Of a DNA stretch of 28,365 bases, positions 10,878-28,365 are shown one piece after another. The DNA lies in the IMG/VR virus record IMGVR_UViG_3300028550_003815, positions 1-28,365 of that record; one strand, written 5' to 3'. Made by a program: the position numbers and the translations under genes. Numbering within the stretch: position 1 is the first letter of the stretch; each line of letters opens with the position of its first letter. The notes below the pieces were generated by a model, which worked only from the letters and a program-made list of their open reading frames with translations, was not told where the DNA came from and did not search any database. This stretch comes from a virus.

Positions 10878-11498
10878 TTAGCCTATTTCGTCGATGATTC
10901 CAACTACCATGGCTTCCTGAGCCGTAAAATATTTGTCATGTGAAGTTTCTTGAGTCCACCATTTGGCGGGCTTCTTTGTATACTCTTCTAAGATCTCACC
11001 GATCATTATGTCAATCTTAGTGTAGTGGTCTGCAGTAGATTTTAAATCTCCAATCTTACCTGATGTGGTTCCCATTCCTTGGTGTAACATTATCGAGGAT
11101 CTTTTGGAAGCATATCTGGTTCCGGTACCCGAAGCTAGTATAAGAGCTCCTGCTGACATTGCTTTACCTCTGCAAATTGTATTGACTGGGACGTCTAAGT
11201 TTTCCATATAGTCAATAATGCCTAAGGCAGAAAACGCACAGCCTCCGAATGAATCTATAACTAAATTTATAGGAAGGTTTGCTTCAGCCTCGTCTCTATT
11301 ATTCATAACGATTCGACATTTAACGATGATGTCCGCTAGACTAAATTCGTCAATAGGACCTGTAAGGTAAACCAGAGAATCTTTAATTGACAACCCATTC
11401 TCTAATTCATTTAGATCTGGAGGAGTTTTTTCAATTGTTATTTCAATAGGGGTCTCGTCTTTTTTTAAGACTTTTTCTTTGTATAAATCTTCTGACAT
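10878..11498 (-). CDS. ClpP-like serine protease
   Basis: A 206-residue protein of the S14 family. The catalytic triad is intact with the spacing of E. coli ClpP: the Ser in GKAMSAGALIL (Ser115), His in IMLHQGMG (His139, 24 residues later) and Asp in HDKYFTAQEA (Asp188, 49 residues after the His). The substrate-strand motif LVIDSFGGCAFSALGI is also present. ClpP forms a barrel of two heptamers fed by ClpX or ClpA. No unfoldase is visible here. The ATG at 11498 is chosen because it follows the upstream stop codon (11500-11502); an in-frame TTG three codons earlier is less likely. It could be a processing protease for virion parts or for tmRNA-tagged proteins. Confidence 0.9.
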   Translation of the reverse strand: MSEDLYKEKVLKKDETPIEITIEKTPPDLNELENGLSIKDSLVYLTGPIDEFSLADIIVKCRIVMNNRDEAEANLPINLVIDSFGGCAFSALGIIDYMENLDVPVNTICRGKAMSAGALILASGTGTRYASKRSSIMLHQGMGTTSGKIGDLKSTADHYTKIDIMIGEILEEYTKKPAKWWTQETSHDKYFTAQEAMVVGIIDEIG

Positions 11499-11499
11499 G

Positions 11500-11712
11500 T
11501 TAATCAAGTAATAGTTTTAGTTGTTTAGGATCTCCAGATTCTTCTGGCATTCCAAATGTCTTTTTTATTGAATTGCTATCATATCCTAATGCATGGGCCA
11601 TTCGAATACAGTTTAATTTGAAAGCCTTAAGGGATAAATCATGTTGAACTTCAAATACGATTCTCTGAGCCTCTATTGATTCCACAGAACGTTCATAAAT
11701 TAATTTATCCAT
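11500..11712 (-). CDS. Small helical protein upstream of ClpP (unknown)
   Basis: A 70-residue protein, mostly helical and charged, with no recognised domain. It ends at 11500, directly before the ClpP start, so the two are probably translated together. Its upstream region (11713-11784) is very AT-rich and includes a CTTATATTTAGAT element in the sense direction, a candidate promoter. An adaptor or regulator of the protease is possible but unproven. Confidence 0.7.
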   Translation of the reverse strand: MDKLIYERSVESIEAQRIVFEVQHDLSLKAFKLNCIRMAHALGYDSNSIKKTFGMPEESGDPKQLKLLLD

Positions 11713-14065: not shown

Positions 14066-14312
14066 CCGGGCTTTAATGATACGACTAGAATAGATCTAAT
14101 CTTGCCCCGTTAATACCAGCAGCTCTGGGTACCTTATTAGGCAGCCATTGCTAGTTCAACTTGTTCGCCAGTTAATTGCGTTGTGATCTTCTGAATGCTC
14201 TTATCATATGGTCAAATCCATGATCACCCCCAGTTATATAAACCGTTTAGTGGAGGTGGGGGGAGTCGAACCCCCGTCCCGATATGTAGCTGACATTCAT
14301 ACTACGATCATC
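14066..14312 (-). ncRNA. ssrA: Circularly permuted tmRNA gene (ssrA), acceptor piece first
   Basis: On the minus strand the tmRNA 3' region comes first: a T arm (GGGGG stem, TTCGACT loop, CCCCC stem) at about 14259-14275, then acceptor strand CACCTCC (14258-14252) and A-CTA. A 19-base spacer follows, then the 5' end GGGGGTG (14231-14225) with the D-loop pattern GGATTTGAC. GGGGGTG and CACCTCC pair over all 7 bases. P2 helices also join the pieces: ATATG (14209-14205) with CATAT (14286-14282), CATTC with GAATG (14298-14294), and GATCA with TGATC (14310-14306). A tag reading frame ends with TAATAA inside a hairpin loop. tmRNA rescues stalled ribosomes. Non-permuted genes have the 5' end first; no 5' half lies upstream here, where a protein gene sits. 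CCA is not encoded. Both outer ends are estimates. Confidence 0.9.
14134..14169 (-). other. tmRNA proteolysis-tag reading frame (GEQVELAMAA, then TAA TAA)
   Basis: Within the coding piece, the frame ending in TAA TAA gives GEQVELAMAA. The resume codon is inferred to be GGC at 14169-14167. Bacteroidota tags commonly start with Gly, which fits, and the hydrophobic C-terminus ending Ala-Ala matches other tags that target proteins to ClpXP-type proteases. The stop codons lie in the loop of a hairpin formed by CTAGCA (14154-14149) and TGCTGG (14121-14116), as expected for tmRNA helix P5. An upstream extension of the frame (TQLT) exists, so the exact resume codon is not proven. Confidence 0.78.
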
Positions 14313-14323
14313 TATAAATATAA
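14312..14323 (-). promoter_or_regulatory. Candidate promoter element before the tmRNA (TATATTTATA)
   Basis: The minus strand reads CTTATATTTATAG directly before the estimated acceptor-piece start (14311). A -10-type element at this spot would place a start at about the first P2 base. Matching elements precede other minus-strand units. Inference only. Confidence 0.4.
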
Positions 14324-27759: not shown

Positions 27760-28365
27760 CTATCTAAATATTGTTACCATACCATTGAGCTGAGTTGCTG
27801 ACCCTTCCTCGGTGGCATTAAGTTTCCATGTATATACGCCATCCGGACATAACCAATGACCTGATCTGCTAGTACCTTCCCAATAATCTGTTGGATCAGT
27901 CATTTCCTTAACTAGCGTGCCCCATCTATTGTATATCTGGAGGTTCCATGTTAACCAGCAGGTGACATCTGTTACTACATAGAACATGTCATTTACTCCA
28001 TCATTGTTAGGAGTAAAGGTATTCGGTATAAAGATACTGTCATCATCACATCCATCCATTCCCGGACCTTCATCACATGGCTCACCGGTGTCACAATCTA
28101 TATATTCGGTCGATAGTATATACTCTGTAAAGGTTAGGGTGTCTGTCACATAAACGTAGTTGTCTACTAGTACGTCGACATATATGGTATCGTACGTTAT
28201 CCATTCGACATCTACATATTCTATAATGGTGTCTGTTATGTATTCAGTCAACCATAGGGTATCTGTCGTATTTATGTATTCAGTCAACCATATGGTGTCA
28301 GTTGTATTTATGTATTCAGTTAGCCAAAGAGTATCTGTTGTATTTATATATTCAGTCAACCATAT
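27760..28365 (-). CDS. Surface protein with T9SS type B sorting domain and 12-residue repeats (partial)
   Basis: The frame is open to the right edge, so the N-terminus and any signal peptide are missing. The last 90 residues are a typical gliding-motility-associated C-terminal domain (CHU_C type): FIPNTFTPNNDGVNDMF, then IYNRWGTLVKEM, WEGTSRSGHWLCPDGVYTW and a final VTIFR. In Bacteroidota this domain guides export through the type IX secretion system and surface attachment. Upstream are three full and one partial repeats WLTEYINTTDT(L/I), then degenerate copies (TEYI, VTDT) and an acidic Cys-containing linker. The gene is co-directed with the phage operon, two bases before the next gene. A host-derived origin is likely. 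Confidence 0.85.
   Translation of the reverse strand: MWLTEYINTTDTLWLTEYINTTDTIWLTEYINTTDTLWLTEYITDTIIEYVDVEWITYDTIYVDVLVDNYVYVTDTLTFTEYILSTEYIDCDTGEPCDEGPGMDGCDDDSIFIPNTFTPNNDGVNDMFYVVTDVTCWLTWNLQIYNRWGTLVKEMTDPTDYWEGTSRSGHWLCPDGVYTWKLNATEEGSATQLNGMVTIFR
28240..28365 (-). repeat. 36-bp tandem repeats coding WLTEYINTTDT(L/I)
   Basis: Three complete 36-bp units (28240-28275, 28276-28311, 28312-28347) and half of a fourth at the edge. Each encodes 12 residues. The units differ at several bases, most of them silent or conservative, so the array is old enough to have diverged but still aligned. The number of copies beyond the window is unknown. Confidence 0.85.

Follow-up and report, generated by a model that had tools for sequence, protein, structure and literature searches.

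A phage-encoded two-piece tmRNA from an apparently virus-confined lineage with a probable permutation event of its own among Bacteroidota or the phages that infect them

Two-piece tmRNAs of phages were published in 2022, when public phage genomes were shown to hold 53 of them, 50 in marine or aquatic phages (PMC9004378). The Melnitz-type marine phage tmRNA of that study resembles the gene described here in being permuted, phage-encoded and marine but, unlike ours, was reported as alphaproteobacterial in type (PMC9004378). The Rfam model of permuted tmRNA, RF04321, draws on sequences of Alphaproteobacteria, Betaproteobacteria and Cyanobacteria; the database kept by its authors contains 79 sequences from phages (PMC11915505). 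Two-piece tmRNAs typically carry PK1 before the tag and PK2 after it (PMC3985003). By way of a short T-arm match we also reached the GenBank tmRNA genes of Chryseobacterium phage MA9V-3 and of the crAssphages cr50_1 and cr114_1, which ARAGORN and RF04321 read as permuted. A sequence-only reading of the locus had implied that such a gene in a Bacteroidota phage would be novel. As permuted phage tmRNAs are published and Bacteroidota-phage examples are already in GenBank, a claim to be the first of its kind fails. However, within papers open without subscription, preprints aside, we found no description of a permuted tmRNA lineage in Bacteroidota phages, and what seems new here is the grouping itself: a phage lineage, widespread and seemingly not described before, with ordinary one-piece Bacteroidota tmRNAs as its nearest relatives by sequence.

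The gene lies in a virus record of 28,365 bases, the whole of which is referred to below as the window; the virus and its close relatives are uncultured. ARAGORN called a permuted tmRNA on the minus strand (14341-14046) with the tag GEQVELAMAA and two stop codons, and RF04321 (Rfam release 15) matched 14298-14137 with 65.5 bits (E=1e-10; gathering cut-off 47 bits). The beta tmRNA model RF01850 gave a sub-threshold match (45.8, against a cut-off of 84) in which the PK1 columns were deleted. No tmRNA was called by ARAGORN in 300 dinucleotide-shuffled windows (8.5 Mb). The order is the permuted one: the T arm and the acceptor 3' strand come first, then an intervening sequence, then the acceptor 5' strand. 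All seven acceptor pairs form, including a G3.U70 pair whose G.U character at the third position recurs in the aligned family, and P2 is closed across the spacer by three segments of 4, 7 and 5 pairs. Resume signal, tag reading frame, stop codons and small C-terminal residues are all present, and the gene extends at its 3' side to an H-type pseudoknot ending near 14068 (Table 1). The gene shares its order and its tRNA-like domain with RF04321 but departs from that consensus, which has UUCGAC and CCA; in the window CCA is absent, CTA standing in its place after the discriminator.

Most of what the sequence-only reading had proposed for this structure thus stands, namely a permuted tmRNA on the minus strand, a 19-base spacer, a perfect acceptor stem and three P2 segments pairing across the spacer, and the covariance search did not return a tRNA-like fragment alone. 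The tag frame and the hairpin that it described are there too, the first stop being partly paired in the hairpin.

Table 1. Features of the permuted tmRNA locus, in transcription order, and a host-indicator protein elsewhere in the window
Feature	Position	Strand	Remarks
Motif ATATTTATA	14313..14321	-	Just upstream of the tmRNA gene; probable phage promoter element
P2 distal helix, acceptor-piece strand GATC	14306..14309	-	Partner 14188-14185; probable precursor 5' end region
P2 middle helix, acceptor-piece strand	14293..14299	-	Partner 14198-14192
P2 proximal helix, acceptor-piece strand	14281..14286	-	Partner 14210-14205; 5/6 pairs form in the window
T arm GGGGG TTCGACT CCCCC	14259..14275	-	RF04321 match and family pairing
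Acceptor 3' strand CACCTCC (14258-14252) and discriminator A (14251)	14251..14258	-	
Intervening sequence, 19 nt	14232..14250	-	Probably excised from the mature RNA; 16 nt minus three CCA positions
Acceptor 5' strand GGGGGTG, begins coding piece	14225..14231	-	7/7 pairs with 14258-14252
D-loop-like segment (...TGGATTTGAC), end TTTGAC	14212..14224	-	UUGAC form, like Bacteroidota one-piece tmRNA
P2 coding-piece strands, three segments	14185..14210	-	Pairing and covariation
Resume signal TAACT	14174-14170	-	Directly before the tag frame
Tag frame GGC...GCC, GEQVELAMAA	14169-14140	-	ARAGORN; two stops after, ending 14134
Small hairpin over stop codon	14131..14142	-	14142-14139 with 14134-14131; first stop partly paired
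H-type pseudoknot 3' of tag	14068..14118	-	Family counterparts, helices 7 and 8, covary
Pseudoknot S1	UGGUA 14118-14114 with UAUCA 14081-14077	-	Read from the sequence
Pseudoknot S2	GGGC 14107-14104 with GCCC 14071-14068	-	
Extra hairpin inside pseudoknot	14101-14083	-	Between S1 and S2 strands
Protein with CHU_C type IX secretion signal domain	27760..28359	-	Pfam PF13585, E=2.9e-16; outside the tmRNA, host indicator

Relatives were collected in two ways. A pattern search on acceptor and tag returned 38 viral contigs, from which 30 distinct genes were aligned, while a search on the tag alone returned at least 80 stretches, 64 of them distinct among the matches listed. A tag of the GEQVELAMAA type is common to at least 60 distinct viral genes. 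Among the tag-only matches listed, 61 of the 64 distinct genes resolve as permuted and the other three are interrupted by contig ends, one of these being still recognisably permuted; a one-piece gene with this type of tag, the intermediate one might seek, was absent from the same matches. Because the tag-only search left the acceptor unspecified, its acceptor stems provide a test free of the pattern. In the 61 genes listed these stems read GGGGGTG/CACCTCC (31 genes), GGGGATG/CATCTCC (26) and GGGGCTG/CAGCTCC (3), with a single G.U form, such that pair 5 is G-C, A-U or C-G, a compensatory change across the spacer. The parsing rule demanded seven standard acceptor pairs, so unpaired stems could not have been scored as permuted, though no gene was lost to it.

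In the 30-gene alignment the proposed structure is paired in 92.5% of cells, a figure favoured by the structure having been derived from one of the 30 sequences. This derivation hardly affects the double-changed cells, which number 125 against a shuffled mean of 37.6 and 7-22 in slid controls. Two-sided changes occur in P2, the T arm, the stop hairpin and both pseudoknot helices. Within P2, the distal helix is paired in 93.2% of cells with C-G/U-A/A-U exchange, the middle helix in 99% with two-sided changes at five of seven pairs, and the proximal helix in 79.5% with such changes at four of six; the T arm is paired throughout (100%) and has two covarying pairs, and the hairpin at the stop codon (helix 6) is paired in 91.2% of cells.

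PK1, which is present in the tmRNA of E. coli, is absent upstream of the tag in the window gene, where there is no room for it: the family has 55-62 nt between acceptor and tag, while other permuted phage tmRNAs mostly have 78-90 nt or more. Its absence is compatible with the two-piece class, for which PK1 is described as typical and not as obligatory (PMC3985003). Most contigs conserve the neighbourhood of the tmRNA gene, but in a few, among them the 153-kb relative G002, its surroundings differ. Spacers of 65 nt or more occur in four family members (L002, L194, L200 and L336); those of the last three resemble one another, and that of L002 is partly similar.

Most of the 30 aligned genes have the conserved motif ATATTTATA on their 5' side. 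On the coding strand of G002 it is enriched with a peak 13-21 nt before ATG (27 occurrences, 6.1 expected), and 18 were found before genes in contig G001 where 3.0 were expected. These counts suggest that ATATTTATA is a probable promoter class of this phage lineage. We rejected the alternative of an antisense T4 late promoter (TATAAATA), since enrichment before genes is confined to the sense form, ATATTTATA.

The earlier suggestion that the gene is phage-encoded is upheld. A pattern scan covering 84,980 species, with one genome apiece, produced nine matches, none of which has an ARAGORN tmRNA and which are thus ascribed to chance. In none of the data searched did this gene lineage turn up outside phages.

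The origin of the permutation is a harder question. The sequence-only reading had offered a distinct origin or a separate lineage; the second is supported by sequence comparison, while the first, an independent permutation, is likely and falls short of proof. We compared core sequences omitting the acceptor stem and the tag, which avoids bias from the search pattern as well as convergence. For all 29 family members compared, the nearest core outside the family was a one-piece tmRNA of the GE type and never another permuted phage tmRNA, with mean identities of 0.54 and 0.45, respectively. Taken by parts, a one-piece gene was nearest for 29 of the 29 in the 3' side of P2 alone, for 23 in the D region and for 13 in the stretch before the resume codon. 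IQ-TREE set the family and the one-piece type apart from every other permuted gene (SH-aLRT 95.3, UFBoot 96). With the annotated phage genes included, MA9V-3 and cr114_1 joined the family (93.4 and 82), and the split uniting these with the one-piece Bacteroidota genes received 96.6 and 87; cr50_1 fell outside the family clade. This tree rests on about 118 nt, with references drawn mostly from viral contigs, none from cyanobacterial or betaproteobacterial chromosomes. The family does not group with other permuted phage tmRNAs, Melnitz itself being outside the compared set.

Three shared traits accompany this grouping. Firstly, CCA is absent from 28 of 30 family genes, from 55 of the 61 tag-only relatives among the matches listed and from 11 of 12 one-piece genes, whereas most other permuted genes encode it. 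Secondly, the D loop is UUGAC in the family and in the one-piece type, against UCGAC or UCGAU in most other permuted genes. Thirdly, a GE-starting tag with a GGC resume codon is also found in one-piece tmRNAs of viral contigs (GENNYALAA and similar). One of these one-piece GE-type references matches records of Bacteroides finegoldii, Phocaeicola and Parabacteroides, in agreement with the earlier statement that Bacteroidota hosts use one-piece tmRNA. The one-piece tmRNAs of B. finegoldii and Parabacteroides distasonis share the GE-starting tag, GGC resume codon and UUGAC loop with the family, and Bacteroidota one-piece tmRNAs mostly lack an encoded CCA and are nearest in core sequence; they differ in being unpermuted, about 395 nt long and scored by RF00023. 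In contrast, sampled permuted viral genes without the GEQ tag have mostly AN- tags, the UCGA form of the D loop and a different core, and mostly keep longer acceptor-to-tag segments. MA9V-3 (PV245944) and cr114_1 (NC_055897) are like the family in being permuted, encoded by Bacteroidota or Bacteroidales-type phages and equipped with a G-starting tag, an acceptor-to-tag distance of about 60 nt and a place in the same core-tree clade; they are unlike it in their longer, unrelated tags (GNVIDINKYVAKLEVAA, GNFYVTDYTRIAA), longer spacer and different phage types.

Grouping with one-piece Bacteroidota tmRNAs suggests a separate permutation event. The lineage probably began with a permutation of its own, in Bacteroidota or in phages of theirs, and then passed between unrelated phages of this host group. 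A fuller scenario, in which a Bacteroidota one-piece gene was permuted within phages as a further origin, lost PK1, and passed between phages of T4-like, crAss-like and other types while staying confined to viruses, we regard as evenly poised. The main competitor is a shared permutation, whereby a phage lineage took an alphaproteobacterial-type permuted tmRNA, comparable to those of pelagiphages, and converged on Bacteroidota features, the GE tag, UUGAC loop and CCA loss being under selection by host SmpB, tRNA enzymes and proteases. Permuted tmRNAs are indeed frequent in marine phages of other hosts (PMC9004378), tag, D loop and CCA are all selectable, and the compared sequence is short. We nonetheless consider this account possible but doubtful, for the 3' side of P2, which lies outside tag, D loop and acceptor, is by itself nearest to the one-piece Bacteroidota type in every member compared, and the tree parts the family and that type from all other permuted genes.

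The marine virus of the window probably infects Bacteroidota, as had been proposed, on the strength of several signals that are indirect but agree. The CHU_C domain of the window recurs in G002, and was absent from the further relatives searched. The GroEL of G002 scores best against a reconstructed Fibrobacteres-Chlorobi-Bacteroidetes chaperonin (678 bits, the next 636). The G002 terminase shares 54% identity with the terminases of Flavobacterium immuto phages, and that of Microcystis phage Mel-JY01 is equally close (56%); the GE-type tag points the same way as the Flavobacterium-phage relatives. No permuted tmRNA was found in these nearest phages (the Flavobacterium immuto phage, Mel-JY01 and a 484-kb uncultured phage), nor a one-piece tmRNA in the Flavobacterium immuto phage. 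Shine-Dalgarno-like sequences occur at few genes, an uncontrolled count of little weight. Proteins of the window include a T4-type baseplate wedge protein, an ATP-dependent DNA ligase and a ClpP-like protease. The CHU_C protein combines N-terminal TEYINTTDTLW repeats with its C-terminal type IX secretion signal domain, and is possibly a phage-encoded secreted or displayed protein.

We are fairly confident that the window element is a functional phage-encoded two-piece tmRNA of a phage-confined, Bacteroidota-adapted lineage, one that probably has its own permutation. Transcription would start from the ATATTTATA promoter, placing the precursor 5' end near the distal P2 strand. By analogy with known two-piece tmRNAs, host RNase Z may cut after the discriminator at 14251, with subsequent CCA addition, and host RNase P ahead of 14231, so that the 19-nt spacer is lost. 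The two pieces would then be held together by the acceptor stem and P2, pairing which the covariation itself demonstrates. G3.U70 is the alanine identity pair, through which the RNA may be charged. No phage SmpB was found in 14 records examined, so the tmRNA must use that of the host, with which it would enter stalled ribosomes and append A-GEQVELAMAA, a likely Clp protease tag in view of its C-terminal AA. The phage may benefit from protein recycling or from the rescue of ribosomes that stall, during infection, on mRNA that has been cut or degraded.

An RNA of this kind might instead act as a decoy or regulator that binds host SmpB or is charged and mainly inhibits or redirects host trans-translation, as with the tag-less DS6A form. 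That a tag-less phage tmRNA inhibits host tmRNA is documented (PMC11915505, PMC4131195), and both the missing PK1 and the SmpB result would suit such a role; yet the tag frame and TAACT-GGC are strongly conserved, with an L/M change only (in a set retrieved by tag), and the covariation of the stop hairpin and of the pseudoknot beyond it is what a translated tag would predict, so that we rate the decoy improbable. A degenerate or chance tRNA-like element without function deserves hardly any credence: a chance origin is refuted by the absence of calls in 8.5 Mb of shuffles, by more than 60 relatives with compensatory changes, and by the conserved promoter motif and synteny.

If the separate origin is true, tmRNA permutation has occurred inside phage genomes too, beyond the bacterial lineages, and a minimal two-piece tmRNA with one pseudoknot and no PK1 is under strong selection in phages of one-piece hosts. 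The lineage also makes it testable why a phage carries its own rescue and tagging RNA with a fixed tag.

An Hsp20-like chaperone gene adjoins the tmRNA in several relatives, lying just upstream in L183 and other contigs; ClpP was found in four of eight relatives searched, and a ClpP-like protease gene lies a few genes from the tmRNA in other contigs (window 10878-11507); GroEL is encoded by G002 (L226 3369-4994). The Hsp20, ClpP and GroEL genes fit a protein-quality theme without proving it, and a role for ClpP as partner protease of the tag is tenable but weak.

Further tmRNA genes were encountered among the records compared. In cr114_1 (L331 1147-1589) a high-scoring tRNA-His lies inside the spacer, and the precursor would give three RNAs. 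In two crAssphages Rfam also places an RNA a few hundred bases ahead of the permuted tmRNA, RAGATH-22 in one (L330 554-720) and RAGATH-9 in the other (L331 724-891). A 2.3-kb contig (L259 114-453) has a permuted tmRNA with a Bacteroidota-like tag, GESNFALAA, but with a UUCGAC loop and an encoded CCA; it was outside the tree and may be a different lineage. A second permuted phage group (L109, L160, L307 and L320) couples the tag ANDNFALAA to a UUUGAC loop and an acceptor-to-tag segment that is short (57 nt in L109). Cellulophaga phage Calle_1 (L328 872-1231) carries, according to ARAGORN, a one-piece tmRNA with the unusually long tag AQIEANMEAVNAILNLEVAVGV.
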